From Hawksworthiomyces lignivorus (lineage: Eukaryota; Ascomycota; Sordariomycetes; Ophiostomatales; Ophiostomataceae): a stretch of 64,000 bases of DNA. Shown here in pieces: positions 2 through 42,603 of this stretch (position 1 is its first letter; each line of letters begins with the position of its first letter). The notes beneath the pieces were generated by a model. That model was not told the origin of the DNA, searched no databases, and saw only the letters and a list, made by a program, of their open reading frames with translations. The position numbers were made by a program, and so were the translations under genes. Where the stretch lies: NCBI GenBank assembly GCA_002917075.1, contig NTMA01000001.1, forward strand, positions 1,054,001-1,118,000. Reading direction: 5' to 3'.

Positions 2-1723
2 GGAGATCAGAACGGGCATGCCCAGAACGGGAATGGTCAACAGTCGACGGGTAGTGACGTCATCCCGCCCGGGCCGCGTCCAGTTTGGAAGACGCCTTTT
101 CATGACCAAGCAGAGCCGGGCCAGATCCCGGATCCAGATGCCATCGCAGACCAACTACGCCAGTTCCAGCGCGGCATGACCGGCGTCAGCCTGATCGATG
201 CCTCTCAGCGCGAACTGTGGGCGACGGGCTACACATCCAACCGGGCGCGGCAGAACGTGGCCATCTACCTGGCGAAGCACCTGCACATCGACTGGCGCCT
301 CGGCGCCGAGTGGTACCAGATGCTGGCTGTCGACTACGACGTCTGCGCCAACTGGGGCAACTGGCAGTACAACGCCGGCGTGGGCAACGACCCCAAGGGC
401 GCCGGCCGCATCTTCAACCCCATCGTGCAGTCGTTCGACTACGACCCCGAGGGTCTCTACGTGCGCACCTGGCTGCCCGAGGTCGCCCGCCTGCAGGAGC
501 TGGAGCACGTCTTCCAGCCGGCCGTCGCCCCGATGGACGTTCAGTACAGGGCGGGGCTGTGCGGCCACCCCCTGGCGGCGCGTCCAGTGAAGCTGATTAG
601 CTACGACAAGCACCAGCCCAAGAAGAGAGGCAGCAACAAGGGCTCCGCAGGGGGTCAGCCCCAGCACAACGGCAGTGCTCGCCGGTCGCCTGGAAGCAGC
701 CGCTGGGCGAATGGTGGTGCCTCGAGTAGAATGCCTCGCGCCCGTCTCTCTTGGCCTACGCCGCCGCCGATGCTGCCGCCGCCACCGCCGGCAATGAATC
801 CTCCGATGCAACTTACGGATGTGCAGGGCATTGGATTTTTCCCTCCGCCGAATAGACAGTCGCCATGGAGAGGCAGGTCTCACAATCAAGGACAGGATAT
901 TGCCAACCAGATGTCAACTCTTATGTCACCGGAATCACAGGTGCAACCACCTACGCATCATCCTATGCGGCGGGACCCCCATCAGAGACAGAATTATAAC
1001 CAAAACCAGAATAGCAGTAGCCAGAACTATAATAATAATAATTACAGCTACCAGAACTACAACAACCAGAACTGCAACAATCAAAACTACAACAATCAAA
1101 ACTACAGCAATCAAAACTATAACAACGAGAGCTTTAATCAGGGCTGCAACGAGGGCTCCGACAATCAGAGCTACAACCAGTTCTACGACAACCAGAGCTA
1201 CAATAACCAGAGCTACAGTGACCAGAGCTATAACAATCAGCGCTATAACAACTGGAGTTACAGTAACGAAAACAATAATTATAGCAGCAATAACTGCCCG
1301 AATCTTTGTTGCCAGAACCGCAACAGCCAGGACCCCAATCAACAGAACTACAACCTCATGAATAACCAAGGGTTTGATGGAAGCAGCAGCAACAGCCGCG
1401 CTTCAGCAACGGCATCGAGTGGCTCACTGATCGTTGATGGCTCGTCGGGCTGTACACAACAAGCCCAAGCTTATCAAGGCCTGCCAGATCCTAGCATTCA
1501 GAACATTCATCTGGTTTCTTCTGGTGTGAACAACGGAGCCGAGAATGGTGAAATCCAGAACAGCGAACGCATGAACGGCGAACAAGAGACCAGAGAATGC
1601 GAGAGCGGAAATGAGCAAAGCCAACAAGATGGTGATGATACGATTCACGTGGAACATCGAGTATTCCGGGCAAAGGAAAAGACGGAATCCGAGGGCAGTA
1701 GTCGAAGGTCCCGATCAATATAA
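2..1723 (+). CDS. cry: Cry-DASH cryptochrome/photolyase, 3' part (5' end outside window)
   Basis: The frame is open from base 2 to the TAA at 1721-1723, giving 573 visible residues without the N-terminus. Roughly residues 45-195 match the C-terminal FAD-binding helical part of the photolyase/cryptochrome family: the visible segments TGYTSNRARQNVA, DWRLGAEW, DYDVCANWGNWQY and AGVGNDP are characteristic of the Cry-DASH branch. Members of this family bind FAD and a folate antenna and act as blue-light receptors or repair cyclobutane dimers in single-stranded DNA. After the fold comes a long low-complexity extension: a Pro-rich stretch (about 220-270), then about 100 residues of NYN/QNYN-type Asn, Gln and Tyr repeats (about 330-435), then a Ser-, Glu- and Asn-rich end. 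The tail is longer and more prion-like than the fold requires. The family call is firm; the role of the tail is unknown. Confidence 0.9.
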   Translation, partial: GDQNGHAQNGNGQQSTGSDVIPPGPRPVWKTPFHDQAEPGQIPDPDAIADQLRQFQRGMTGVSLIDASQRELWATGYTSNRARQNVAIYLAKHLHIDWRLGAEWYQMLAVDYDVCANWGNWQYNAGVGNDPKGAGRIFNPIVQSFDYDPEGLYVRTWLPEVARLQELEHVFQPAVAPMDVQYRAGLCGHPLAARPVKLISYDKHQPKKRGSNKGSAGGQPQHNGSARRSPGSSRWANGGASSRMPRARLSWPTPPPMLPPPPPAMNPPMQLTDVQGIGFFPPPNRQSPWRGRSHNQGQDIANQMSTLMSPESQVQPPTHHPMRRDPHQRQNYNQNQNSSSQNYNNNNYSYQNYNNQNCNNQNYNNQNYSNQNYNNESFNQGCNEGSDNQSYNQFYDNQSYNNQSYSDQSYNNQRYNNWSYSNENNNYSSNNCPNLCCQNRNSQDPNQQNYNLMNNQGFDGSSSNSRASATASSGSLIVDGSSGCTQQAQAYQGLPDPSIQNIHLVSSGVNNGAENGEIQNSERMNGEQETRECESGNEQSQQDGDDTIHVEHRVFRAKEKTESEGSSRRSRSI

Positions 1724-2690
1724 CCGGTCCACTCTATCATGTTGAGATCTCTTGAGAGATATGACCAGTGTCATGGCTCCAACCCGTCCTCTCTTCTTCT
1801 AATGGTTGTATTATTATTACCACTGTTCTCTCCTTGCCCATTTTGGGGCTTAATGTCTTTTGGTCTTTTCACTTTCTTTTTTTTTCTACCACGCAACAAC
1901 TTTGCTCTTTCTTGGATACCCTATAGACTTTTTATTTCTTTGGTTGTTTCTGCTTGGCGTTGGAATTTTTCGACATACGATGAGCGTCCGCTTCCACAAG
2001 CTAGGAGGCAGTATTCATCTAAACGCGTGAAACGTTTGAAACCCATGAGAGTTTTATACTACATCTATATGATCAATATGAACGCAAACTACCGCTAGAA
2101 TTAAGAATGACTGCAAGTCTCTTCTAGCTAGCGTTTTATACGACTGTTGCAAAGCTTTTGGATTTTGGATTTTGGAGTTTTTTTCCCCCGCCTTTGGGTT
2201 TCTTAATCTTTTGGTTATTGGGTCTTGGGTTACTGGGTCTTGGGTTACTGGGTCTTGGGTTACTGGGTATTGGGTTACTGGGTCTTGGGTTACTGGGTCT
2301 TGGGTTACTGGGTATTGGGTTTCTCGGGCTTGGGTTTCTTGGGGTTGGATAGAAAAAGATATAATATTTCTAAAGAAGCCAGCTCGCTGCTGTATCTTTA
2401 GATATAAAGTTGTGCTAGATATTCATAAGGCAGCTTTTTAGAGCTAGCAACAGAGAATATCTCTTTCATGATATCATGTGTTGTCCATCCTAGTGAGGCG
2501 TAGACTGTTCATAGTGATGCATCGCAAGAGATCTTGAAATCACTCGATCTTGGGGACAATTGAGAGACAGTGAGCTTATTTTTACTGGCAATTTCCATAC
2601 ATAACAGAGTATCTGCGAGGAACGGTGTTTCTCTCTTTAGCTCCTTCAATAGCCCAGACCAGACGCGTGCGATTTTGCCACTTAGGCCTC
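1724..2690. other. Intergenic region between Cry-DASH and TPR-CHAT genes
   Basis: These are the convergent 3' flanks of the Cry-DASH gene and the TPR-CHAT gene. The region is T-rich and contains the 15-bp minisatellite listed separately. A 119-codon ATG-started frame at 1739-2098 has no recognisable domain and lies where a 3' UTR is expected. Confidence 0.6.
2221..2340. repeat. 15-bp minisatellite, eight tandem units
   Basis: Eight head-to-tail 15-base units of the form GGTCTTGGGTTACTG fill this interval exactly. Two units carry a C-to-A change at the fourth base (one of these also ends in TTCTC), and the last unit is diverged; a degenerate partial unit lies just upstream. The plus strand is a regular array of G-triplets on a T-rich background. 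It lies between two convergent genes. The units read through as LGLLGLG-type peptides in one frame, which I take as a consequence of the repeat and not a protein. Confidence 0.95.
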
Positions 2691-5600
2691 CTACGGCCCA
2701 TAGTGAGCAAACGGCGCCCAATATAGCGGGAAGCCCAAGTCTTCCGCCCTTGCAGCTATTACTGCTTCCCGTAGCGCCGCTGCCACATCTACGTCTCGCC
2801 AACATGATGCTCTCTGCCCAAATAGATGCGAGTAAAACTTGTCGGCCACCTGCACGCAGACCCTATCGTTCGACGGCCACAGGCAGCCGATGACATGAGG
2901 AAAACCGGCTACCATAAAGCCGCTGACTACATGAATGACCTCATCGGATAACCGCTCAGCCTTATTCTGCGCGGTTGAGCACGCGGAGAGATAGGCCAGC
3001 TGGGCGCGCTGAAGATTAACCTCTGAGATCTTGCCGACTGTAAGCTTGTCCTGCACCGCACATGTTCCGGTGCTGCGGGCCTCATCCTCCTTTCCATCAT
3101 CATATTTTTCATCTTCGACCTCCAAAGGTGGTTGGAGATGTGCTTGCCTCTGCAATATCAACCCGCTGTTTGATGGGTTGATGTGGTCCATCAATCCATG
3201 GCAAGCGAAATGTGCGACAGAGCAGAGCGGCAGCTGCTTCAGCACATCGTCGACACTTGGTTGCTTCATATCTTTTGCTGTGATGTGTCCTTTAGCTCGC
3301 TCAAGCACAATTGATGTCTCTTTGCCGACGCCGCGAAGAGGAGGTAACTCTGATTGGTTCAAGCCGACTGGCGTCTCTGGCATGGATATTGTTAAGACCA
3401 TGCCGTCTGTCATCTCAACCGCCGAAGTTTGCTTTGCCCGCTTACGAGCATGAGCGAGTGTTTTGATTGAAGGGACATAAGATGAGATTGTTGTATGAAT
3501 TGCTGTTTCCTCTGAGCCACGTCGATGGTCCCCAGCTGCATGGAAAGGCAGCGAGCTGGCCACTCCACTTCCAATCCACCATATCCTCAGGAGACTGTCA
3601 TTGTTAGGTGACTGTTGCAAATCGCGAATGGCATTTACGATGGGCTTAACGCAAGTTTCCCAAAGCCATTTCAAGTAAACTAGGTGTTCTTCGTTTTTGG
3701 CTACTTTTTCTCTCCTCTTCCCAGCCCAGTCTTTGCTCAACCAAACTTTAGCTTCGCCAGAAGACAATTTTGGGAGACTGATGGTTTTCACCGTCGTAGG
3801 TGTTATTATTATGGCGTCACTTTGAAGCGCCGTAACATTAACAACCACGATGTTACCCCCATCAGCATGCTGACGATAGTCTGCAGCTGTCTGTTCTTGT
3901 GCAATTTGCTTCTGCAGATCTGTGGTAGACTGCGAAATCGTCGCCGGCATTTGCCTCTTCTCAACGCTTTTGCTGTCAAGCAACAAGCCGATGATTACAG
4001 CTCGGCCCGTTTCTAGATATTCGAGAGCTTCTTCAACTCGATTCTGCATCAGGAGGAGCGAACAGAGGTTGGCTGTCACGCCTGTGAAAGTCGATATAAC
4101 GTGTTGTTGATCATTTCGATCAAGAGCCTTGAGATTAACGGTGGGCAGCAGGTGAATAACGCCCTTTCCTATCTGCGCAGCGTCGTCGTACTTCTCTTGG
4201 AGGCAGAGGAATAAAATACAAAAAGCACCAGCCCGGATACGCCGAAACGGGTCTCCATGAGTGGTGTTCCATGCCTGGATTAGATACGTCGAAGATTCGT
4301 CGAGATCAGCAGGCGACTTGGTTTTTCTATGCCGAAGTTCAAGCCACACTCCGAGATTGTACAAGCGAGCTAGACGCTCCTTGTGGTCCACCGGCGTGGT
4401 TGTCAACGCCTGCCGGGCCACATCGATTGTTTCTTCTAGATCCTCGTCTGCCCCCGTCTTCTTGTAACGATTTCCGATCTTAGCGGCAAGATTGTTTAGA
4501 AAGACAGCGCGATCAGGATGATCAAGAGGCGCGGTTGCTACTGCCTGCCTGGTGATGCGGATGGCTTCTTCTAAGTCGTCCAGCATGCCGGTACGCTCGA
4601 AACGGTCTTCCAACTTGTTTCCTAAATTATTCAGACGAGCTGCCAAATCCGGGTGGTCTTGCGGGGCGGCGTCTACAGCTTCTTGGGCAACGTGAATAGC
4701 TTCTTCTAGATCTGTCGCTGCTTTGGTCCGTTCATAGCGCGTTTGCAGCATATTTGCTAGATTGCTGAGCCATGCTGCGTAATCCTGATCAGTTTTAGGT
4801 GTTGCTGCTACGGCTTCCCGAGCTGCACTGATTGCTTCTTCTAAGTTAGCCAAGATGCCGGTCCGCATGTAACGGGTTTGGAGTTTCGTTCCGAGATTGT
4901 TAAACCAAGTCCCGCGGTCCGGGTTGCCATCAGGAGTGGCATCCAGAGCATCTCGCTGCACATGAATTGCCTCTTCTAGATCAGTCCTGGTGCCATTTCG
5001 ATCGTAACGAGATTCAAGTTCTGATGCTAGGTTGTTCAACCTGCGTGCGCGGAGAGGACTGTCTCCGGGCGTAGCCGCAACCGCCAGCCGGCATAGACGG
5101 ACTGCTTCTTCAAGGTCGCCTATGTCTCCCTTTCTCTTGAATCGGTTTCCAAGCTTAGTTCCAAGATTATCCAAGACGATACCGTAGCTTGGGTGGCTGT
5201 TTGGTGTAATGGCCAATGCCTGCTGAGCCAAGCTAACGCCTTCTTCCAGATAGTCAATTTCTCCAGTCCGTTCATATGCGCTGTGAACTTTCAGTCCCAA
5301 GTTATTTAAACGCACTATGTGACTTGGATTCTCACAAGGAGTGGCCGCCACTGCTTCCCTCGATATCTTAATTGATTCTCTTAGGTCGCGTATGTCGCCC
5401 TGTGTTTTATATCGGAGTTCGAGCTTGTCTGCCAAGTTATCCAGTCTGATTGCACGTCTAGGGTAGCTGTAGGGTGTGGCCTTCACTGCTTGTTGTGACA
5501 CGCGGATTGCTTCTTCCAAATCGGTGGCTTCGCCAAATTCTTTATACCGGCTTTCAAGCTTGGTCCCGAGATTATTTAGGCAAGCAGCACGGTCAGGATG

Positions 5601-6197
5601 TTGCTCGTCAAGGCTGAGCGTGGCTGCTACTGCATCCCGGGCCATGATAATTGCTTCATGGAGGTCGGCGATGTCTTTTGTCTTTTCATACCGGGATTCG
5701 AGCTTGTTCCTAAGATTCGTTAAAACTTTTGCGCGGTCAGGGTCGTTGCCTGGCGAGACTTTGGTTACTTGGCGGGCTATGCTGATTGCCTCTTCCAGAT
5801 CGGCAAGCGCTCCAGTTCGCTTATACCGGTTTCCAAGCTTGTTCGCAAGGTTGTTCAAACAGATTGGAATGATCGGGTGGTTGCCAACATCAAAGGCTGC
5901 TGCCACAGCCTGCCGAGCCACGCTGGCTGCTTCTTCGAGGTCGGCAACATCTTCAGTCTCTTCGTATCGGGCTTCTAGCTTATTTCCCAGCTCATTTAAA
6001 CAAGCAGCGCGCTCGAGGTGGTCGTCCAATGGACAAGCTGCCACATCCTGTCGAAGAAGCTTGATTTCTTTGTCTAGACCTGAAGGTGTCGCGGTGCCGT
6101 TCTGTCGATTCGTATTGTTCCCAGTCCATCCCGTCAACTTTTTCCACACCGAGCGCCCTTGAGTTTTCTTTGTCCCCCCTTCAGTAATTCGGGCCAT
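2691..6197 (-). CDS. TPR-CHAT protein: tetratricopeptide array with caspase-like CHAT protease domain
   Basis: A single uninterrupted 1168-residue frame starts at an ATG at 6197. Residues about 65-655 hold thirteen consecutive TPR-like units of about 45 residues, each of the form xLNNLGxKLExRYxRTGxxxDLEEAI followed by an A-rich helix. The C-terminal third (about 830-1168) is a CHAT domain: FACHG places the catalytic His at residue 1000, LSACST the catalytic Cys at residue 1073, and the ending PLYWAPF is typical. CHAT is a clan CD, caspase-like peptidase domain; TPR-CHAT proteins in fungi have NLR-like architecture, and bacterial TPR-CHAT is the protease of the gRAMP system. Dyad and frame are intact, so it is probably active. 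It diverges from a 284-residue orphan whose ATG lies 981 bases away. A role as ligand-sensing protease is inference. Confidence 0.92.
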   Translation of the reverse strand: MARITEGGTKKTQGRSVWKKLTGWTGNNTNRQNGTATPSGLDKEIKLLRQDVAACPLDDHLERAACLNELGNKLEARYEETEDVADLEEAASVARQAVAAAFDVGNHPIIPICLNNLANKLGNRYKRTGALADLEEAISIARQVTKVSPGNDPDRAKVLTNLRNKLESRYEKTKDIADLHEAIIMARDAVAATLSLDEQHPDRAACLNNLGTKLESRYKEFGEATDLEEAIRVSQQAVKATPYSYPRRAIRLDNLADKLELRYKTQGDIRDLRESIKISREAVAATPCENPSHIVRLNNLGLKVHSAYERTGEIDYLEEGVSLAQQALAITPNSHPSYGIVLDNLGTKLGNRFKRKGDIGDLEEAVRLCRLAVAATPGDSPLRARRLNNLASELESRYDRNGTRTDLEEAIHVQRDALDATPDGNPDRGTWFNNLGTKLQTRYMRTGILANLEEAISAAREAVAATPKTDQDYAAWLSNLANMLQTRYERTKAATDLEEAIHVAQEAVDAAPQDHPDLAARLNNLGNKLEDRFERTGMLDDLEEAIRITRQAVATAPLDHPDRAVFLNNLAAKIGNRYKKTGADEDLEETIDVARQALTTTPVDHKERLARLYNLGVWLELRHRKTKSPADLDESSTYLIQAWNTTHGDPFRRIRAGAFCILFLCLQEKYDDAAQIGKGVIHLLPTVNLKALDRNDQQHVISTFTGVTANLCSLLLMQNRVEEALEYLETGRAVIIGLLLDSKSVEKRQMPATISQSTTDLQKQIAQEQTAADYRQHADGGNIVVVNVTALQSDAIIITPTTVKTISLPKLSSGEAKVWLSKDWAGKRREKVAKNEEHLVYLKWLWETCVKPIVNAIRDLQQSPNNDSLLRIWWIGSGVASSLPFHAAGDHRRGSEETAIHTTISSYVPSIKTLAHARKRAKQTSAVEMTDGMVLTISMPETPVGLNQSELPPLRGVGKETSIVLERAKGHITAKDMKQPSVDDVLKQLPLCSVAHFACHGLMDHINPSNSGLILQRQAHLQPPLEVEDEKYDDGKEDEARSTGTCAVQDKLTVGKISEVNLQRAQLAYLSACSTAQNKAERLSDEVIHVVSGFMVAGFPHVIGCLWPSNDRVCVQVADKFYSHLFGQRASCWRDVDVAAALREAVIAARAEDLGFPLYWAPFAHYGP

Positions 6198-7178
6198 GTT
6201 AGGCTAAGCGCTTTCAGAAGAGTGAAGCGTCAAACACTGAAGGTGAACCACTGATGCAGGGACCCAGAACTTATTGTCTCGGAAAAAAAAAAGAGGAAGC
6301 AAGATGTCAATATCAAATTTAATTACACGATGCCAGAATTGTACAGTTTGTTCCAAGTTTCGTATCTTTCTTTGATAGTTTAATATTCCTCGCCCAGACT
6401 TGCTTCGACACTCCTGTCAGATGCGTCTGCGGATGTCAGGCGCAGCAATCTCAAGCGTATTCCAATGAAACCGATCCTAACATCTTCAACCAATAACAAC
6501 TATGGTCGGCCCGCACCGCAACTCCTAACGACTTTGAGAGCAAGGCTAATCTTCCCTTACGAGTGTCCTCAACCACAATAACCTGAGATGGTTATTCCCG
6601 GCTAGTAAGCATCAGTCTAGGTCAGTCTTCTGTGTGGCCAGTTGGGCCCAAGGCTGACAGCCATTGCAGCCTAGTTCTCGTCGCATTTGTTACAGTGGCT
6701 GTGGCAACAGAGCAAAGGCAATTTACAGCCTGGACGTACACATCATTTGAATCTTCGTCGGAAAAGAGGGGTTTCAACGCCCGATCATTCCCCGCCATCC
6801 CCTCCGTTTCGAAGCGCGTGGGTGTCTCGAATTTTCCATATATGCTTGCGTACGCGTAAATTGAGCACTTCCCTGCCTCTTTCCAGGCACTGCCCCTCTT
6901 CCAGACAGGAGGCAGCAAAGGGCCTGAATGCTGCGCCGCGAATATGATTCGCACAGAAGCGACCCCAAAGTGTCGAAATGTGTGTTTGCAGCCTGGGCTA
7001 GAATCGTCGCCAATCGGGTTCCGCCCCCTTGGCCGCAAATAAGGTCAAGATAGGCGCTGCCTCATTTGACATTTCTTTTCCTATAAGATGCACTGCGCCG
7101 CCGCTTGTGGTCGATAGCCAGGCCCCCAATTCTCCTCTTCTTCCTCCACAGTTCTATGGTCATCCAATCATACGCACA
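6198..7178. promoter_or_regulatory. Shared divergent promoter region of TPR-CHAT and the 284-aa orphan
   Basis: These 980 bases separate two ATGs that point away from each other, so they must hold both promoters. I see no conserved gene here. The frame of the downstream orphan stays open back to a TTG at 7029 but contains no ATG before 7179, so the region is leader, not coding. Specific transcription-factor sites cannot be assigned by eye. Confidence 0.5.
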
Positions 7179-8033
7179 ATGCAGCCGCTTTTCATTCCGC
7201 CTGGGTTTCTCCCGACAAATTTGGTCAAGGTCGGCAGCTTTACAACAAGCATCAAGAGACTCCTTGAAGACTATCATGTTCCGCAATGGCCCAGCCCGCT
7301 GGAGCATGCCGTTGTGCCTAACAATGAATATCTTATGTCGGCAGACGTAAAGCGCAAGGATAGCTTTAAGCTCGCTTTGACGTCATTTCTCTCGATTGAG
7401 TTCTCAAAGCGCAGTAGAAAGCAGCTCCATATCAGCGCCGAAAAGGTTGAGACGAGGACGCTCAACAACTCGACCCACTGGTTCGAGGAGGCGGCGGCCA
7501 TGGAAGACACGCGGCTTTGGCTCGAACGGTGCATTGATCATGACAGAGATGTATACATGATCGTGGGCTACTGCGCCCTAACGAACGCACAAGTCGCGGT
7601 TGATAGCTGGCAAGGGAAGAACATCGAGGGCCTCTTTAGAGTACCCTCCGGCACTATTGTGCCGATGGGCGACTACATCGATCCTGCAGTCGGGAACGGC
7701 CGCTATGAGAAGGATAGCAGACATTCCTCCTATGCCTTCAAGGGAGAACAGGTCTGCGCCGTTCAATACCGCAAAATGACTTTCAACTGGCTCTCGAGCC
7801 GCAATATCGCCAAGTCTCAACTCTCTAAGACTCGCTGGCTCTCTTTGGAAATGTCAAGAGGAGACGACGACGAAGAGGACATACTTGAAGCAAATTTAGA
7901 ATCGATAGATGTCGGGGATTCCAAAGGGGCATGGGAGACACACGAGTTGCCTGGTGGGTTAGTTCTCGCGTCTATAATAGACGACGAAGAAGAGGAGTCG
8001 GATTGGGTTTATTGCGAGACCATGCAAATTTGA
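7179..8033 (+). CDS. Orphan fungal protein, 284 aa, candidate gasdermin-like effector of the TPR-CHAT protease
   Basis: The first in-frame ATG is at 7179 with A at -3; the frame is open 150 bases further upstream but without an ATG. The 284-residue product is intronless. Visible features: a P-x-NLVKVG segment at about 12-19, an alternating hydrophobic/basic stretch at about 55-95 that looks like long beta strands, an amphipathic acidic helix at about 100-120, a VYMIVGYCALTNAQVAV core at about 125-141, then a hydrophilic C-terminus with very acidic runs at 229-233 and 268-274. There is no signal peptide or clear membrane helix. The N-terminal pattern recalls widespread fungal orphan proteins found beside NLR-like genes, and the two-part layout with a small acidic C-terminus resembles fungal gasdermin-like proteins, which are often encoded beside CHAT or subtilisin-like proteases. 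That family assignment is only a hypothesis; the gene itself is fairly secure. Confidence 0.7.
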   Translation: MQPLFIPPGFLPTNLVKVGSFTTSIKRLLEDYHVPQWPSPLEHAVVPNNEYLMSADVKRKDSFKLALTSFLSIEFSKRSRKQLHISAEKVETRTLNNSTHWFEEAAAMEDTRLWLERCIDHDRDVYMIVGYCALTNAQVAVDSWQGKNIEGLFRVPSGTIVPMGDYIDPAVGNGRYEKDSRHSSYAFKGEQVCAVQYRKMTFNWLSSRNIAKSQLSKTRWLSLEMSRGDDDEEDILEANLESIDVGDSKGAWETHELPGGLVLASIIDDEEEESDWVYCETMQI

Positions 8034-8547
8034 ATCTAAAAGATGATCCAAATTGTATGATAATCTGGAAAGTTGGTTATTATTGAGAGAATTGGAATAT
8101 CAAAGCAGTGATAAAGCTCAGATAACCAAGAAGTGACCAATCGTTCATGACTTAGGACTACATGCCTTGCCGAATCATTTATATCACCATTTTCTTTTTA
8201 CTTCTCTGCATCAGGTATCTATCAACTAGGACATATCCTAGGTTGGGCTGTCTGAGGCGCAGAGCACACACCGAGAACAGCGGCAAAACCATAAAAGACC
8301 ACTCGAGAGAGATTACATATCCATCAATAATTATTCCACTATTGAACATTCTTTTGTCTCGGTTTAGAAAGTATTTCCTTTAGCATAGTTTCGCATAGTT
8401 CAAATTCAAAGAAGGCAGATGAGGATTAATCTAATTTACACGTCGTTATCCCCCCCCCCAAAAAATTCAGTACCACTAATAATACCAGTCGAAGTTGGAA
8501 GCGATGGATAGTCGGCACGTGAATTTTTAGAGCAATCTCTTATGTCA
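8034..8547. other. Convergent 3' flank, no gene seen
   Basis: The interval lies between the stop of the 284-aa orphan and the stop of the helicase gene, which converge. It is AT-rich with a C homopolymer near 8450. A 73-codon ATG frame at 8162 with a hydrophobic start has no support. Confidence 0.5.
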
Positions 8548-11320
8548 CTACCACAAAGATGGCAAAACAGCTACTTCCGATACATTTGTGGTTGAAGGTG
8601 TGTTTACTCTAAAGAGTGCGTTCTGTCGTGTGGCCTGACCATAGCCCGCATCGATGGTCACCACACATCCCTCAGCGAGACCATCAAGTCCGTTTTGGCA
8701 AGCATCGTACAGTTTTCGGAGATATTTGCTACGGTGGAAAGAAACCGTCGTTGGCATTTTAGGATGCATTAGATGCCATTCGCCTTGCCGGGCACGTGTC
8801 AAGCCAACGTTGAACCGATACATGCAATCCATAAAGTCAGTAGGATAGTCTCGCACATAGTCAATGCAAATAATATCGGCTTCGTGGCCTTGAGAACTAT
8901 CCCATGTTCGAGCTTCAACCCGTTGCTTGATTCGATCGTAAGGATAAGTTGTGGCAAGCTCATCGATGGATTGTTGGTACATAGTCACGGCTGCCTTGTA
9001 TGGAGCTAGAAGTAGAATGGTTCCCGGCTCTTTTGTGTTCTCGACGCTCCTGAAATGCTTGTTCCGAATCAGCTCCAATACTTTCTTCATTGTCCAATCC
9101 ATGTGTTCTGGATGATACCAGCTCGTCCCCACTTGTACCGGCTTGCCAACTTGTGCGAGATGTATAATAAGTCGCGGAACACTGCATCGCGTACTAGCGA
9201 GATCATTGAAGAAATCTCGAATAAACTGAACGGATTGAGGGAATCGTTCCTTAAATGGAATACCAGAAACCATCTTAGCATCGTAGATCAACTTCGATGG
9301 CAGCCGCTCAAGACGCCCAAAAGCCCGATGGTTAATCAAAAGTTGATGTTTTAACACTCCTGCCAAGAACGCTCTCTCCATGACAGAGGTAGCTAGCTGT
9401 TTCCCGTAGGGATTTGTGTTGCTCTTTACAGTTGGCTGCGTCTGGCGGTGATCACCAATGAAGATCCAGCCGACAGCTGGGCAGAAATTAGCAATTGCAA
9501 TGAGCGTTGACAGCTCACGCGCATGAGCCGCCTCGTCAAAAACAATTAGGTCAGGTCTAAACATGCGCCTAAAAGCGGTCGCCGCAACGCAGGGCGTCGT
9601 TGCGATGAAATCAGCTTGATCCAGGACCGTTTGATACAAGTCAAATATGTGGAAGCGGAGGGCACGATTTTTAGCTACACTGTCATCGCATGCCTTCAGA
9701 AGCTCTGTGAGCTCGGGGAACTCAGATTTGCATGTTTCATAATGATTCCAAGCTACCTCATCCAGTGTAGGAGTGACACATTGATGGCGCACTTTGCTTG
9801 GCTTTGGAGGGCTTCCTTCTGCATTTTGGGTATAGAGGCTCAAGAAGTTTTTTGAAAAATCGACTTCAGGCTCATCTTCGCTGTTAATATGAATCGAAGA
9901 TTGTACAATGCTGCGACCATCGCTACCTTGCGCACGCCGCTGTACTGATGTTATGCGAATGCTTTTTCTCAGCTCTGTACCAAAGCTGCGCATGCGGATA
10001 GCTTTCTTGGAAAGACTAGAAATTTTCACGAGTTTGACGTATTTTGTAGTCGCGTCATCGAGAGGGTCGTTGATATCAAGAAGATATAAGACTTTGGCAT
10101 TCGATTTGCTTTGCATGAGACCGATCACAGACATCACCCAATCGGTTTTACCACCACCAGGACCACCAGGGAGGAAGCAAAGTCCACAAGGCATGTTGGT
10201 GAGATTTTTATGATATGCGAGCCGCTGATGTTCGTTCATGCGTACGTATTTCTTCAAAAGAGCGGAAGGTATGGCAGAATCTTGCTCTGGGTTAAACATG
10301 TGCGGATACATTTCGAACATGTTAATAGAGAATTCCGGTTTGCGAAAATCCAGCATGTACCTGAATGCAGCGACTTGTTTAGACTGTATAGCACTCGGTT
10401 TAACAGCGCCTCCTTTCATCCTTTGTACAGAAACGGTCGATTGCTGCTGAACATCTGGACTCCGATCTACTGGTACCATTTTGTCTCCTGTGTTGGGATT
10501 CTTTCTTCGAGCCCGAGGAAAGGGGTTTTTGGTCGCCTTGACCATCCTGGACAAAGCACTCATTTCTGCATCAAATGTAGCTTCAGATCTAGAAAAGAAC
10601 AATCGGATATTGACAGCATTCCAGTCACTAAGGATGAGGTCGTCTACACTTTTCTGCTGATTCTTGCCAGATGGAATGAGAGCTTGAAGTACCGACTTAC
10701 TGTCATCCATGGTCTGTACCAAGGTTATGTTGAATGCAATGAATTTGGACCAATCTTGCTTTGATTTACCCATGGAGCCGAAGTTGTTGTGTATCCGTCT
10801 CGCCGTCCAAAATACAGAGCGATCTTCCATTGTGATCGGATCGGCAAGGCGTAGTTGGCAAGTTTCGCCAATGCCGGGAAGTCGCATGTCAATGTTCGAA
10901 TTTGACTTCACGAGAATGAGCCACGTTTCTTCTTCACCGCATGAAATAGCAAGAAGAGGCCATGCCTTAAGAAAGTTTGGTTCGTTGTTGAATGCATCAA
11001 GCTCTTGGGCCTCGAAAGCGTCTTCAAATTCAGTTGCCATCTTGTGTACACTCTGAAAATGTTCAACAGACTGAAACTGAACAACAATGTCCGATCGAGC
11101 TGATTCTATTAGTCTAAGCGGGATAGGAGATTCATTGTAGTTAGGTCCGTCTGAGGAGAACTGGAAATGGGCTTGAGTCAGCCAAGCAGTTAAGAGTTGG
11201 AGAAAACTAATATTTGCTTGCCTTCAGAACTCCTCCCACAGTGTTCTTTGCCAGGAAATCTTGCATAGCCGCAAATACGCGGCGTGCATCATCTGAGCTA
11301 TAAATGTCACTAGAAGGCAT
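8548..11320 (-). CDS. UPF1-like superfamily 1 helicase, 903 aa, probable GC-AG intron
   Basis: Two exons: 11320-11222 (33 codons) and 11160-8548. The 61-base intron has a GC donor (AAG|GCAAGC), a branch-like GCTGAC and a CAG acceptor; joining gives a continuous phase-0 frame of 903 residues. Without it the protein would begin at an internal ATG (11040) and lose 73 residues. SF1 motifs are clear: Walker A GGPGGGKT (about 365-372), DEAA Walker B (about 575-578), GDHRQTQP motif III (about 602-609), SSQGHEAD (about 788-795) and NVGLTRAR motif VI (about 817-824). This is the AAA_11/AAA_12 layout of the UPF1/SETX/DNA2 group, which translocates on RNA or single-stranded DNA. The first 290 residues have no recognisable domain and there is no Zn-binding UPF1 N-terminus, so it is not UPF1 itself. 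It lies tail-to-tail with the 284-aa orphan. Confidence 0.9.
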
Positions 11321-35281: not shown

Positions 35282-37423
35282 TTAGGCCTTGAACAGAGCC
35301 ATGAAACCGCTCGGCGGCGGCGGGGCGTCTTCGAGCAGCTCCCGTGCCCGCCGCCGCCTGTCTTGAATCACCTTCTCCTCAGCAGCCCACCGGCCGAGCT
35401 TGTCGGACATGCTGCCGCTGACAGCTGCCAGAGGTGCGGACGACGACGACGCAGCCGCGGCGCCGTCGCCCCACAGGGTCAGCCAGCTAGGCCACCAGGA
35501 GCTGGCCGACGAGGTTGCCGACGCTGCCGCTGCCGCCTCCGCCGCCTGCCGCGCCGCGGCCTCGTCCCGCACCAGCTGGGCCACCATGGTGGACCAGTTG
35601 TCCAGGCCGGCGACCAGGCACTGGCGGCAGACGGAGCGGCCGCCGTGGAGCACGGCGGCGTCGGCGCGGCTCTGGTTGAGGAGCTGGGCGGCCGTCTTGC
35701 GGTCGCCCTGCTGGGCGAGCGCGTGCAGCTGCTCCTCGGCGGCGTCGACGGCCTCGCGGGTCCAGGCGATGCCCTCCTCGCGGGCCTGCTGCTGGTGGGT
35801 GCGCGCCGACGTCGACGCGAGCCACGAGGACGACGCTGCTGCTGATGATGTCCGCGCCGACGCGTACAGGATCTCGCCAATGTGCAGGCGCAGAGCGGCC
35901 TCTTCGCAGCGCGCCTGCGGGCCAGGCAGCGGCGGGCCGAAGCCGTCGTCCGGCGCGGGCGGGTAGCCCGGTGGTGACAGCAGGGCGATGACCTGGTCGA
36001 CGAGGGTCGGCGCGGCGCTTTTCTTTTTCTCGGCCGAAAACACCGACGACGCCGCCGACGCTGGCGAGGACGACGACGACGCGCCCGCAGGCGAGTCTCG
36101 TCCTGGCGGCAGCGCCCGCCGCGCCTGCAGCACGGCCACGAACACGGGCAGCGCCGCGGCGACGGCGCCCGCGCGCGCCTGGAACGTGGCGTAGGCTGTC
36201 AGCGTGCGCAGCAGGTTCTGCGAGACGGGCACGGCGCCGGCGGCTGTGGTCCCGTCGGCGTGGTGCTTCGACCAGTCCTGGATCCACGCCGCCGCGTCGA
36301 CGTCCGCGGGGCCGGCCGCCAGGATGGACCTAAAAGAAGAAGAAGAAGAAGCGTCGCCGCCGGCGGCAGCGGCGGCATCGTCGTCCCCGCTGCTAGGCGG
36401 CCGCGCCGCCGCCAGCACCGCCCGCCCGTACACGTATGCGGCCGCCTCCGCGTCCTTCTTGTACTCCAGGTAGTTGGCAAACGCCAGCGCCGCCGTGATC
36501 TGCTGTCCCGCCGTGAACCCCCGCGTGTGCAGCAGCTTCAGGTACAGCTCGGCCGGCGACGGGAAGCACGGCTCGCAGTTCTCCTCGCGCGGCGCGCCGC
36601 CCGCCACGCTGCCCGGCGGAAGCGGCCGCGGGTTCGGGTTCGACGGGCCCACCACAATCTCCGGCGAGCACACCACGTTGCGCGTCCGGTCGCGCACCCA
36701 GCCCTCGACGTGCTCGGCCGTCTCGGCGGCCGCCAGCAGCGCTTCAAAATATCCCCGCCGCCACGGCTCGCTCCGCCGCCGGATGTCCATGGCCTCGGTG
36801 TCCTCTAACAGGAAGAGAGCATGGTCCCCTCCCGCGCTCGCTTCCACGGCGTCCAGAGTGCCCACCACATCCGCTGCTCCGTCGACGCGCGGGTCCTCCA
36901 GCCGGCCGATCAGGTCCAGCAGGATCTGCATCACCTTGACGTGGTCGACGATCCGGATCTCCGAAGCCGCATCGTCCGTGCTCTCTGCCCCGCTGCCGCT
37001 GCCGGTGCCCTCCTTTTCGCACAATGCGCCCCGCAGCCGCATCCGCGACATGAAGCTCCATTCCGGCGGCGTCGGATGCGCTCGCTCCATCCACTCTTGC
37101 TGGATGACAAATTGGCCAAGCAGCACGCAGCTGACGGCAGCCCAGAAATAGAGAGTATACTTAACAAAGGCGAGGGCCTCATAGCGGAGCCATCGGCGAC
37201 GTTGTGTGGTGAAGTACCGCGAGGAGTGGGTGGTGCTCGACGACGGGGTGACTAGGAACGGCAGCTGAGGCCGTGCTCTGGCGTATCGTCCCCAAGTAGG
37301 TGTGGCTGCAGAGGCAGAGACACTTGGTGCGATGCTCTGGCTCTGTGTGAAAGAGAAGGCTCGCCGGCCAGATGTGCTTGGCCGGGGCCGGGAGAGTCGC
37401 AAGAGCGACAATCGGGGTCGCAT
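35282..37423 (-). CDS. Predicted mitochondrial membrane protein with TPR-like helices (Mgr3-like)
   Basis: One exon of 713 residues starts at an ATG. Residues 1-80 are basic and rich in Ser, Thr and Arg with few acidic residues, suggesting a mitochondrial presequence. One membrane helix lies at about 88-107, followed by the conserved-looking EWMERAHPTPPEWSFMSRMRLRGA. The rest is helical and Ala-rich, with TPR-like pieces such as AELYLKLLHTRGF and AFANYLEYKKDAEAAAYVYGRAVL, interrupted by Ser/Asp/Ala low-complexity runs (about 340-365, 425-455 and near 530). A single N-terminal anchor with TPR-like repeats recalls Mgr3, an adaptor of the i-AAA protease of the inner membrane, but I cannot prove orthology. 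The very GC-rich coding sequence has long shadow frames on both strands. It is convergent with the Arb2 gene. Confidence 0.8.
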   Translation of the reverse strand: MRPRLSLLRLSRPRPSTSGRRAFSFTQSQSIAPSVSASAATPTWGRYARARPQLPFLVTPSSSTTHSSRYFTTQRRRWLRYEALAFVKYTLYFWAAVSCVLLGQFVIQQEWMERAHPTPPEWSFMSRMRLRGALCEKEGTGSGSGAESTDDAASEIRIVDHVKVMQILLDLIGRLEDPRVDGAADVVGTLDAVEASAGGDHALFLLEDTEAMDIRRRSEPWRRGYFEALLAAAETAEHVEGWVRDRTRNVVCSPEIVVGPSNPNPRPLPPGSVAGGAPREENCEPCFPSPAELYLKLLHTRGFTAGQQITAALAFANYLEYKKDAEAAAYVYGRAVLAAARPPSSGDDDAAAAAGGDASSSSSFRSILAAGPADVDAAAWIQDWSKHHADGTTAAGAVPVSQNLLRTLTAYATFQARAGAVAAALPVFVAVLQARRALPPGRDSPAGASSSSSPASAASSVFSAEKKKSAAPTLVDQVIALLSPPGYPPAPDDGFGPPLPGPQARCEEAALRLHIGEILYASARTSSAAASSSWLASTSARTHQQQAREEGIAWTREAVDAAEEQLHALAQQGDRKTAAQLLNQSRADAAVLHGGRSVCRQCLVAGLDNWSTMVAQLVRDEAAARQAAEAAAAASATSSASSWWPSWLTLWGDGAAAASSSSAPLAAVSGSMSDKLGRWAAEEKVIQDRRRRARELLEDAPPPPSGFMALFKA

Positions 37424-38434
37424 GATGTAAGGGAGGAATTAGAATGCAGATATCTAACGAGCTCGTTTGGAACTTGGCAGATATCTTTGTGAAGTAAGAG
37501 ACTTATCAATCTCGAAATTAGTCAAGGGAATTCGCCTGCGGCAGCGTATGTAGCCATGGCTTGTGAAAGATGTCGTTCGTTACAAGAATCCGGGTGAGAT
37601 GGAGCTTATGCCTCTACTCCGCTGAAGTTTCTTCGTGGGGTCAATCTCAAGATGCTGATTTCAAGTGTTAACCCGATTATGGCACATCTGTCACATGACT
37701 TTGACTTCTCCACTTTTCAGCTATGTCAACCAGAGACAACCTTTGTTTGGCTGCTTCTTACAAGCTGTATGTACTTTAAACAAGTACATTCTGCGTCTTA
37801 CAGAGGTATGTACAAGCTTTCAAGTTAAGAGGGCTAAGCATTGTTTACGAGGAAAGGGGAAAGTTCGTCTTCCTTGTCCTTACTTTAATTAAGTATGGAG
37901 ACAATGGCATATAGGACAGCAAACGAGTGAGAAGTAGACATGACATTTATTTCATCTTATTTTCTCGTCAGAAAGATGTTAATTCGGACTTGTTATGGTA
38001 TAATAGAAAAAAACTGGCAAAAAAACGATAATGTCTGTAAATATCATTCTGTGTGGCATGAGTATTCGTTCTGCCCGTATATGTGGTTTGAAATCTGTCA
38101 GTATTCTATGTTTTCACGCTGGAACTCTTTCCTCTCTTTCTTTGTTTCCCCTTCTTCTTTATGCTTCGCTGTACACGATAATGTACTTTGAAATTTCCCT
38201 TTTGTTTTCATCGCGATGACGGTAATGCTTCAACAATCAAAACACAAGAACCAGAATATAACGTCCAAAAAGAAAGGTAACAAGAACAAGGAAATTTGAT
38301 CGAGGCGAGATTTTCTCTTCAATGAAGATGGTGGGAAAAGATGAGCGGAAGGGAAAGAGAAAAGTAAGATATCGACTACGTGCACCCATTCAACAGTAAA
38401 CTACATGCATGCTGTGCAGGGCTGCTCCTCATGC
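37424..38434. other. AT-rich intergenic region, no gene seen
   Basis: This has clearly lower GC than its neighbours, in sharp contrast to the GC-rich gene on its left. Short frames are present without recognisable content. It holds the promoter of the mitochondrial protein gene and the 3' flank of the 1369-aa gene. Confidence 0.5.
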
Positions 38435-41400
38435 CTAAATCTGCTCTTCTTGAGACCGCACTAGCTCGCATAGCGTGCGCATGAACAGCGGATCAATTCC
38501 CCGAGCAGCTTCCGTGTTCATCAATGTGTTGCCTAGCTCTCCTGTCGTGAGCTTGAGCGTCGATACTAGCTGGCTGATGCAGTTGTGGAGACCGACTTGC
38601 AGATCACGCATCTGGGCATCCGATGACGGGACTGGTGGCGCCGGCGGCGCCGAAACGAATGGCGAGGGCGGTTCGGCTGCGATAGGACTCGTTGCGGCCG
38701 GAGGAGTTTCTTCGATCACAGGGTTTGGTGTCAAGACCGGCTTGCTAATCTTGAGATTCGGCCGCGCATTGATTCTGGGGTGAGCCCTTTTGATCTTCGA
38801 TGCCACCAGAGACTTCGCCTTGGTTATTTTTGTCGTTGCCGAGTCCGCTACAGCCGCTTCATACAATGGCATACCGCCAGATCTGAGCCTGCGCCGCCTC
38901 AGTGAGTTATAGCGTCGATTCAAGCCACTGCCGCTAAGTAGCTCTCGGTTATTCAAAGGGGCAGGGCGATTAGCTCTGCTGCTGTCGGGTTCTAGTATTT
39001 CTGACATACCCAATAGGGCGGCCGCCTTTCGAGAGATCAGCAGATTGTCGTCATCTGCGTGCCCACGTGATGGAGGTGGACTAGACGACGGCGACAACAG
39101 CAATACGGAGCTGTCTTCTAATATCGCCGGTGACAGCGGCCGCAACCAGCTTGGAGAAATGGAATCCATAGATGCGGAATGCGACAGCGGAGGCAATGCA
39201 ACGTCAGATCCGACATAAACACGGATGGTCTGGCGCTTTTGCTTTTTGGCTGTCCTAAACAAAGCAGCCTCTGCCGTTGACGCCGTTGCCGTGCTTGCCG
39301 CTGTCGATTGGGCGTACTGTTCGATGTGGGATGCTATCGAGGTTTCTGGCTCGGGAGCCAGTGACGGCGGTGGACAGAGCAGGCTGACATAGTTGAAGGC
39401 AACGATGTGGGCATAAAGAGCATCAAAAAGGTAGTCGGAACCCGTCGGGAAAATCCTCTTAAAGCAGGTTCCGCTTCCCTTTCCTTGCTCCTCATCAGAA
39501 AGAGTCTGCTGGTCGTCCGAGAAGTTTCCCCGACTACTGGAGTGACGCGGTGTTGGTGGCCTAACAGGCGAGAGCGCATTGGTGTTGCCAGAAGATTCTC
39601 CTCCTGCGGCTCCACTCAAGCTCGGCGACGTTCGCGATGCCTTTAGTCGTTTCGGCAGACCCCAAAACCAGCGGGCTGAGTGTGGAGACGAAGATGTAAT
39701 CGCGTCCGAGTCAAAAGTTGTTCCATGAAATGAGGGTGCCGTTGGTGAAGTAGGGAGCGTAGGCGTCGTAAAAGACGAGCGTGTAGGGGAATCGGTTGCC
39801 AGACCACCTAAAGTCGAAGGTGCCATGATAAGGCTGTCGATATTTTCACCTGCGAATAGATCACAGCGACGAACTTTACGAGAATAGGAACGAATGGTCT
39901 GAATCGAGAAACTTGTCAGGCTGAGCATCGTCTCTGGGAAGCACGAGACCGATACGCGGAGCGTATCAACAATCTCTCGAGGTAAAGGAATGGCTACTAC
40001 TCCAGGTTGATAGAAGCTACTGTATGGGAATGGTTGGCTCTGCTCTGGTTCATTTTGTATGTTGGTGACGCTACGGTGCTGCCCAGACGCGGCATCATAA
40101 TTCTGCTCTGCTTCTGATGGCAACTGGATTTCGGCGTTCTCATCTTCTTCGCAAACTAGGTGGTGGCCCTTAGAGAACGGACTGTAATTATAATCTTTTG
40201 GAAGATGGGGCCCAAGATCCGTGTTGTTGAATTGCTCGTGTGCGGTCTCTTGGTTGCCTCGCGAGGAGCCTTGAATCCACGACTTAAGATTTGGCTGTGC
40301 GTCACCTGTCTCTTCGAGGGCGAGGTGAGGCTCAGAATAATCTAATCGAGTATTAGCATAGCAGCACAAAAATTAACAAGGATGTTTGGAGCAGCCGTAC
40401 CAAATGAAAGGGAGCGACGAGATCGAAGAGATGGAGATAGCTGCCTAGAAAACGACATTTCTGTGGCTATTTTTATCCTATCTTCGCCTTCGTTGTAAGT
40501 GTAAGTGTCTTGAAAATCAGCAAATAACTCTCCATTGGTCGCTGGCTCGCTATCGTCGTTGTGATTGCTAGCGCCATCGTGGATGCCGTTATTATCCTCA
40601 TCCTCGTCGTCGTCATCATAGTCAAATTGGCTTCGTAAAACCTGATTTTCAGCTGGCATCACCCTTGTCTCATGCCCGCTATTGCCTGTATCATCTAAAA
40701 CGACTTTCTTCTGAAATATCTGCACACCGCTCACCGAGATGGTATCTTTGGCTTCGGCCATCGTTATTTCACCTGCTATCCCTAATGGTCCCTCATGCAG
40801 AGACAGCGCGTCATCTCGATTTGGCCACTTTTGTTCCTCAATGGGCTGTCGATACACAGTTTGTTGCAGAAACAATGGTGCCTGCTTAGCGAGGGCGGCA
40901 TCTTGTACAGGCGCAGGCAGATCAACTGAGATCAAGCCAGTCCTAGCACGCGAGTTGCTATGGAAGTGAGAAGGTCCAGCTTTGCTCTTTGTAGAGAGCA
41001 AGGCGTTTGGGAACTCTTCAAGGGAAACCGATGTATCACTGAGAGATGAGAGATGCTTAAGGTGAAGCAGCTGTTGTTGATCTGACTGGCCATGTTTTCG
41101 CGGCTGCGTAAAACTCTCTTTCCGAAGGTTGTCGGAAGTTGCTTTTTGGCTGAGTGATTTACTCCTCTGAAGTTGGACAGCAGAAGAGACAGGAACAGTC
41201 AGAGTATTAGAAAATTCCTTTTGGTTTATCCAAGTATGCGACTCCTTGTCCTCATTTCTCTTTCCGCGAGATAGTCCCAAGGCGGTTTTGGGTCGCTGGG
41301 GGAGGGACATTGCTGAAAACGATGGCAAGCTGATAGTAGCCGGGTCTTCCGTTGTTACGTTTGTTTCAGTGGAGGATGGCACGTCGATGGTCTTTTTGAA

Positions 41401-42603
41401 ACTGCTGTCATCGTCATCAAAATCCATCCAGCTCGACTGTTGCGTTTCAACCTGATTTTCAACAGAAGCGCCAATCCGTTTTGAAGCTTGATAGCCTGCA
41501 CGAGGCCCTCTTCCTGCGTTGGATGCATGGTTGTATGTATGTCCAGGCTTTGCTTTCTGGCTTTCGGTATAGAAGCTACCGCTATTGCTCCTTACACGCT
41601 CTGTGATACCTGTAGGCATCGTGGCTTCTTCTTTGGGCGTGTCATCATGAACGGTATCATTACCAAGGTCAAATTCGACATGGCGATCACAGGACACCAT
41701 AGATTCTCTCTGTGAAGGGCCCATTGCTGAGAGCGTATGTGACAGGGAGGAAACGCGACGACCTGACGAAGTCACTGACGTGGCTGCGGTTACAACCGAC
41801 TGCTGCCGGCCACGCGCAGACAATGGCACAGACAAGCCAAATGAAGACACGCTGGCTGAATCCGACAGGATGTTGTTGTCATCGGTGTAGCAGCTGCTGT
41901 AGCTGTCGCAACTTCCACTGCTGTTGCGGCTGTTGCTGATCTGATTTCGGCTGCCACAGTCAAATGACTCGCTGTGTTCAACGCTGCCGGCAAATAACGC
42001 ATGAGCAACCTCCTCAGGTATCTGCTCTCGTGGCTGTTGCAGCTGTTGTCGATACTGCTGCTGTCGCTGCTTTCGTTTCAGGCCAGAGTCATACCAGCGA
42101 GATGCAAACAAGCTGGGGTTTGGTATTTCAAAGCTGTCAACGCTGTCTTTGTCGAAATCATTTACGGCCTCTGTGGTGGCTGCAGGGTATTGTGGAAGAT
42201 AAGGAGAAGGCCGCATTGGGTGAGAAAGGACCGCACGCCCTTCAGAACGACAGTGAACTCCAGCTCTTCTGACCGGTATCTGTGGGACTGATTCGTCCTC
42301 AAGCGAGAGTCGCACAGGTAATGATACAGATTTTGTGTGACCATCATCGCTCCTCTCAACCGGCATATTCACAACATCTGTCTGCATGTAATTTTGTGAA
42401 GTCTCCGGATATACAGTCGCATCTGGAGGCGAATTTGCTGTTCTATTATGATGCTTCTGCGCTGCTGCATTTTGAAAAACGGTGGACTCGAAGATGGCTC
42501 CCATAGGTCGAGGAATGCCAGCAGTCATTCGCTTAGCAGCAAATACTGGCTCGGCCGTTTCTAGATTAAGAGCCAAGAGCTCCGGGAAGTTGCATGCATT
42601 CAT
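38435..42603 (-). CDS. Large disordered fungal protein of unknown function, 1369 aa
   Basis: Two exons, 42603-40401 and 40341-38435, with a GTACGG donor, TTAG acceptor and 59-base intron; the join (SLSFDYSEPHL) keeps one frame of 1369 residues. I do not recognise the protein. Most of it is Ser-, Gln- and Asp-rich and predicted disordered, with an acidic DDDDEDEDNN run at about 660. More ordered-looking parts are the N-terminus (FPELLALNLETAEPV), a segment with IPLPREIVDTLRVSVSCFP and TSFSIQTIRSYSRKVRRC at about 855-895, DALYAHIVAFNYVSLLCP at about 1050, and a helical C-terminus ending LFMRTLCELVRSQEEQI. There is no signal peptide, membrane helix, zinc finger or kinase motif. The many Ser-Pro and Arg-x-x-Ser sites would suit a phosphorylated scaffold, which is inference. 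Start chosen as the first ATG of the frame. Confidence 0.82.

Follow-up and report, generated by a model that had tools for sequence, protein, structure and literature searches.

A TPR-CHAT protease gene paired head-to-head with a divergent gasdermin gene, a probable cell-death switch of Hawksworthiomyces lignivorus

We analysed a 64,000-nt window of the genome of Hawksworthiomyces lignivorus (GCA_002917075.1, contig NTMA01000001.1, 1,054,001-1,118,000 of the forward strand), in which a TPR-CHAT protease gene, a gene for a 284-aa protein and an SF1 helicase gene follow one another. We identify the 284-aa protein as a divergent fungal gasdermin (fGSDM). The region very probably constitutes a two-gene switch for pyroptosis-like cell death in this filamentous ascomycete, comprising the TPR-CHAT and gasdermin genes, with the helicase gene as an ordinary neighbour. 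The pair is real, intact and probably functional, and of a kind already known, its gasdermin belonging to a divergent branch. A preliminary description of this DNA had called the 284-aa protein an orphan and had named gasdermins as an analogy only, not as the identity of the effector; the label no longer applies, as the protein belongs to a recognisable family.

The layout given in that description was borne out: all three open frames were found as placed, with an intact TPR-CHAT gene head-to-head with the gasdermin gene and the helicase gene convergent with the latter (Table 1). The TPR-CHAT frame (2691-6203, minus strand) is open over 1170 codons, with an ATG at 6197 and no internal stops. 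The gasdermin reading frame sits within a 343-codon open frame, and its stop codon lies 514 bp from that of the helicase gene. Chance is ruled out by the long open frames, by a relative of the 284-aa protein at 43% identity and by helicase relatives at 56-61% identity. In the gap between the protease and gasdermin genes, bacterial promoter and terminator patterns occurred at chance level only, and such patterns are inapplicable to fungi.

Table 1. Features of the TPR-CHAT/gasdermin locus and the adjoining helicase gene (window positions)
Feature	Position	Strand	Details and basis
TPR-CHAT protease gene, putative sensor-protease (Q2L type)	2691..6197	minus	single exon, 1168 aa; open frame and Pfam
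CHAT caspase-like domain	2697..3677 (C1:1056697-1057677)	minus	genome CHAT search and Pfam
Putative catalytic Cys1073, motif LSACS	2979..2981	minus	alignment
Putative catalytic His1000, motif FACHG	3198..3200	minus	alignment
TPR array, at least 12 repeats of 45-48 aa	4242..6002	minus	repeat pattern, 12 anchors
Intergenic stretch between protease and gasdermin start codons, 981 bp; possible shared promoter	6198..7178		frame positions
Divergent fungal gasdermin (fGSDM) gene	7179..8033	plus	284 aa, single exon; profiles, predicted fold
Acidic C-terminal tail, residues 226-284, putative inhibitory segment	7854..8030	plus	composition, isoelectric point
SF1 (UPF1/SEN1-like) helicase gene, judged a neighbour	8548..11320	minus	open frame, Pfam, homology

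A single-sequence search of ~5.8 billion proteins at E ≤0.1 returned two relatives of the 284-aa protein (P0002), namely P0003 (43% identity) and P0004 (37%), both on short contigs and likewise without a precomputed Pfam domain. In its own genome, searched as 43.7 Mb in 191 contigs, the protein had a single further match, a weak one that belongs to P0005 (C132:9781-10098, E 0.0016, 25% identity). Alone, P0005 matched RCD-1-2 (E 0.001) and RCD-1-1 (E 0.0016) in the PDB as well as a bacterial gasdermin model (E 3.7e-5). This single-sequence route from the 284-aa protein through P0005 to RCD-1 is free of profile circularity.

Profile searches extended this link. A four-sequence profile (P0002-P0005) collected 36 proteins, 34 of them new. 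Fifteen of the 36 gasdermin-family rows name a species (14 species), among them members of Xylaria, Metarhizium, Cordyceps, Fusarium and Diaporthe. The alignment used thereafter, A3, had 36 rows: 34 of the 36 collected proteins together with P0002 and P0005, the fragments P0023 (169 aa) and P0025 (156 aa) being left out. Against the PDB, the A3 profile matched RCD-1-1 (E 2.2e-14), RCD-1-2 (E 1.4e-12) and HET-Q1 (9uv9; E 1e-6). As a control for circularity, P0002-P0004 were removed; the profile of the 33 family rows scored them at 21.3, 18.0 and 15.6 bits, respectively, while the best of 3000 shuffled sequences reached 5.9. In the reverse direction, 22 of the 35 family members scored higher with the three-sequence profile of P0002-P0004 than the best of 2100 shuffled sequences, which reached 7.2 bits. 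According to hhalign, this group aligned with the rest of the family over 190 columns with a probability of 96.3% (E 1.8e-9), and P0002-P0004 formed a separate long branch with a local support of 1.0. One relative, P0035 of Diaporthe citri, carries a precomputed match to PF26164.1, which may be a newer Pfam family for fungal gasdermins; the Pfam copy that we used is without PF26164 and finds no family for P0035.

The predicted structure pointed the same way. Modelled by AlphaFold from the 36-row alignment, the 284-aa protein has a predicted gasdermin N-terminal fold, at moderate confidence (predicted local distance difference test, pLDDT, of 66.6). Gasdermin entries filled ranks 1-30 of a Foldseek search with this model, and RCD-1-2 aligned to residues 2-245; the model confidence was below 50 at residues 254-262 and 264-284. 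The length of 284 aa also suits an fGSDM, for which about 240-300 aa are expected, the pore-forming domain being followed by a short C-terminal segment.

Several results weigh against this identification and would suit a different kind of effector, one that resembles a gasdermin merely in a model of moderate confidence. No Pfam match was found for the 284-aa protein at E values up to 1, and a PDB search with the profile of P0002-P0004 returned no gasdermin, its one row being a chance match to a designed minibinder. P0002 is only 13-22% identical to the remaining family, and 13 of the 35 family members failed to exceed the best shuffle in the reverse search. Some circularity persists because the family rows were collected with a profile that contained P0002-P0004. 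Structurally, the best Foldseek row had template modelling scores of 0.39 and 0.49, below 0.5 in both cases, with a root-mean-square deviation of 7.6; the model built from the three-sequence alignment had a pLDDT of 31.8, and the better model depends on the alignment of distant relatives. We nevertheless consider a non-gasdermin effector very improbable: the sequence profiles agree in both directions, the family finds RCD-1 and HET-Q1 in the PDB, P0005 provides a link by single sequences, and the leading Foldseek ranks are all gasdermins.

The partner gene encodes a protein with Pfam matches to CHAT (E 3.4e-37) and TPR_10 (E 7.5e-31). Its FACHG and LSACS motifs, which we take to be catalytic, place the CHAT histidine at residue 1000 and the cysteine at residue 1073, the latter as previously described. 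Both marks of the Q2L type were found, namely a CHAT domain with a His/Cys pair and superstructure-forming repeats, here TPRs. The array includes an additional repeat at residue 317 that the repeat pattern missed. Pairwise identity between repeats averaged 45% for protein and 53% for DNA, with a DNA maximum of 64%; the repeats are thus diverged, and we saw no sign of a recently shuffled array. By sequence, the TPR-CHAT protein matched 14 PDB rows, all of them kinesin light chains, and was linked to no solved CHAT structure. In PADLOC, the 284-aa protein had no match and the TPR-CHAT protein weak rows only (best E 0.012). In all, the genome search gave six CHAT matches, the window gene included. 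Two CHAT copies have stops inside the match (C41:48798-49664 and C115:76730-77386) and are either decaying genes or genes with introns that the search read through.

The genome yielded two more fGSDM genes, although such searches rank the best candidates only and further copies are possible. One, encoding P0005 (C132, frame 9448-10317), starts ~0.7 kb downstream of an S8 protease frame of the same orientation. The other (C130, frame 241448-242374, minus strand) has 43% identity over 235 residues to a Fusarium fGSDM and, while outside the A3 profile, matched A3 at E 1.1e-68. Both adjoin frames with DUF7580 and Peptidase_S8, so that each of the three fGSDM genes found has a protease gene as its neighbour, of the S8 type in two cases and CHAT in one. 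With a distance of up to 10 kb taken as the measure of such proximity, the TPR-CHAT start codon lies 981 bp from that of the gasdermin gene. By simple arithmetic, the chance that a random gene falls within 10 kb of one of the six CHAT matches is ~0.3%, and that it falls within 10 kb of a CHAT or S8 locus is ~1% (23 loci were used; a recount gives 6 + 16 = 22). The C130 locus (L050; locus positions 2102-4355 and 4448-5374), in which the fGSDM gene is convergent with the DUF7580 and Peptidase_S8 frames, probably one multi-exon gene, represents the second gasdermin-protease pair of this genome. The C132 locus (L013; locus positions 1488-3792, 4449-5321 and 8377-9999), in which the fGSDM gene lies downstream of the DUF7580/S8 frames and a HET-domain frame follows ~3 kb further, is a cell-death gene neighbourhood.

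These arrangements resemble those described in the literature. CHAT and S8 proteases are known partners of fungal gasdermins (PMC12881547, PMC10197012); ~80% of the gasdermin genes of fungi are clustered with a protease gene, mostly S8, with ~17-19% being CHAT/cysteine proteases (PMC12881547, PMC10197012, PMC10989679). In Podospora, a TPR-bearing CHAT protease activates the adjacent gasdermin (reviews PMC12881547 and PMC10197012). One allele of the Aspergillus fumigatus incompatibility gene hetB has a CHAT domain (PMC11138114).

That CHAT would likewise cleave the adjacent gasdermin in H. lignivorus is well supported by homology, and from published relatives we infer that cleavage would lead to pore formation and cell death with a role in allorecognition or defence. 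In such a mechanism, the TPR-CHAT protein would combine sensor and caspase-like protease, and the short acidic C-terminal tail would hold the gasdermin inactive. The TPR array would detect a cue, the candidates being non-self cell fusion, a virus or another invader. CHAT would then cut the gasdermin near the junction of the pore-forming domain and the tail, at approximately residues 226-250, and the freed domain would oligomerise in the plasma membrane and kill the fused or infected cell. The 59 residues of the tail include 20 D/E against 2 K/R; because the isoelectric point of the tail is 4.1, compared with 8.7 for residues 1-225, and because the predicted fold spans residues 2-245, an inhibitory tail cut by CHAT at residues 226-250 is the simplest reading. 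The stimuli that activate such sensors are described as a major open question in PMC12881547.

It is also conceivable that the two genes do not work as a pair, the gasdermin being activated by the mixing of alleles or by another protease and CHAT having another substrate. RCD-1 provides a precedent, since its activation occurs when two alleles meet and involves no cleavage (PMC12881547). In addition, profile searches revealed no recognisable fGSDM near any of the other five CHAT genes (17-20 kb searched per gene, 7.4-11 kb on each side of the match), and CHAT is therefore not always accompanied by a gasdermin, a further point against the proposed switch. However, the head-to-head adjacency speaks against independent functions, as does the location of both other fGSDM genes next to proteases. 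The acidic tail is moreover comparable to the piece removed from HET-Q1, a 278-aa protein that is cut at F238 with the loss of ~40 C-terminal residues (PMC10989679). We therefore judge unpaired functions unlikely and retain the TPR-CHAT/gasdermin switch.

Among known systems, the closest is the TPR-CHAT/fGSDM cluster of Podospora anserina (Clavé et al. 2022, via PMC12881547 and PMC10197012), in which a TPR-CHAT gene likewise adjoins an fGSDM gene. The comparison relies on descriptions in these reviews; the gasdermin in H. lignivorus belongs to a divergent branch, and the activity of its pair is a predicted one. HET-Q1/HET-Q2 of P. anserina shares a gasdermin of ~280 aa that ends in a short tail, and the family profile matched the HET-Q1 structure; the protease there is an S8 subtilase instead of a TPR-CHAT protein, and the het-Q genes are idiomorphs (PMC12881547). 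RCD-1 of Neurospora crassa was the top match of the window gasdermin in both fold and profile, but it is activated when two alleles meet instead of by a clustered protease (PMC12881547). Bacterial gasdermin-protease operons and the Craspase TPR-CHAT of type III-E CRISPR systems resemble the pair in coupling a sensor to a protease and, for bacterial gasdermins, in encoding the substrate nearby. These systems are prokaryotic, however, and no CRISPR part was seen at the window locus; the PDB sequence matches of the window TPR-CHAT protein were solely to kinesin light chain TPRs.

The preliminary description had included the helicase as the third member of a possible defence module. Its pairing of the TPR-CHAT protein with a probable cell-death effector stood, the effector now being identified as a gasdermin; the membership of the helicase was not supported. 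The helicase frame (8548-11223, minus strand) is open over 891 codons and matched AAA_11 (E 4.5e-18) and AAA_12 (E 2.2e-17), with weak matches to AAA_19 and DUF7300. The right end proposed at 11320 proved apt, in that the gene probably has a short exon 1: starting with an ATG at ~11320, this exon continues the N-terminus in a second frame in a manner that resembles the N-termini of relatives. By homology, exon 1 spans ~11231-11320 and exon 2 runs from ~11160 down to 8548, the boundaries being approximate. The AAA_11/AAA_12 core is shared with UPF1/NAM7 and SEN1, whose rows had E values of 7.8e-12 to 1.2e-7. An N-terminal Cys/His-rich zinc-binding domain defines UPF1, the helicase of nonsense-mediated decay. 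This domain was absent from the Pfam rows of the 891-aa frame, a scan that excluded the ~30 aa of the first exon, and the close relatives form a separate fungal family.

The best 12 of 23 helicase relatives were 56-61% identical with 85-96% of the query covered; those named are from Niveomyces, five Sporothrix species and Grosmannia, while more distant named rows are from Thyridium, Gaeumannomyces and Coniella. Sporothrix and Grosmannia belong to the Ophiostomatales, and Niveomyces, the best match, is filed under Hypocreales. With the five Sporothrix species grouped with S. schenckii, Ophiostomatales account for six of the 10 named helicase species; we drew no order-level assignment from this.

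If the helicase were a member, it might sense foreign or aberrant nucleic acid and license TPR-CHAT to cleave the gasdermin. Such a module, sensing for example mycoviral RNA, would amount to an RNA-sensing pyroptosis pathway in fungi. In its favour are the proximity of the helicase and gasdermin stop codons, the absence of a second close helicase copy from the genome search and the retention of the SF1 motifs in the helicase alignment. By contrast, none of the 10 named helicase carriers was among the 14 species named in 15 of the 36 gasdermin rows, although diverged copies may escape a word-based search. No helicase match lay on the contigs that bear the other five CHAT genes and the other two fGSDM genes, the remaining matches in the genome being on C117 and C67. 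The TPR-CHAT protein, moreover, already has a likely sensor array. In the gasdermin reviews PMC10197012 and PMC12881547, the word 'helicase' does not occur. A three-gene module is accordingly highly improbable, and the helicase is best read as an ordinary flanking gene of the two-gene switch.

Housekeeping genes had been placed only further right; a DNA photolyase/cryptochrome frame (2-1720) in fact lies directly left of the pair. The 3' part of this frame contains 15-bp repeats (1021-1252), and a 15-bp minisatellite of 8.3 copies with 92% matches (2213-2336) separates it from the TPR-CHAT gene. Elsewhere in the window, three long open frames of 718, 645 and 811 codons on the minus strand (35285-37438, 38438-40372 and 40345-42777) had no Pfam match at E 0.001, and a frame on the plus strand (50578-52839) carries a pro-kumamolisin activation domain (E 1.5e-46).

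Overall, the supposed orphan becomes a gasdermin that is invisible to the Pfam copy used. Since it and its two closest relatives form a separate long branch without a Pfam match, fungal gasdermins may be undercounted. The pair is compact and intron-free, and is directly testable in yeast.

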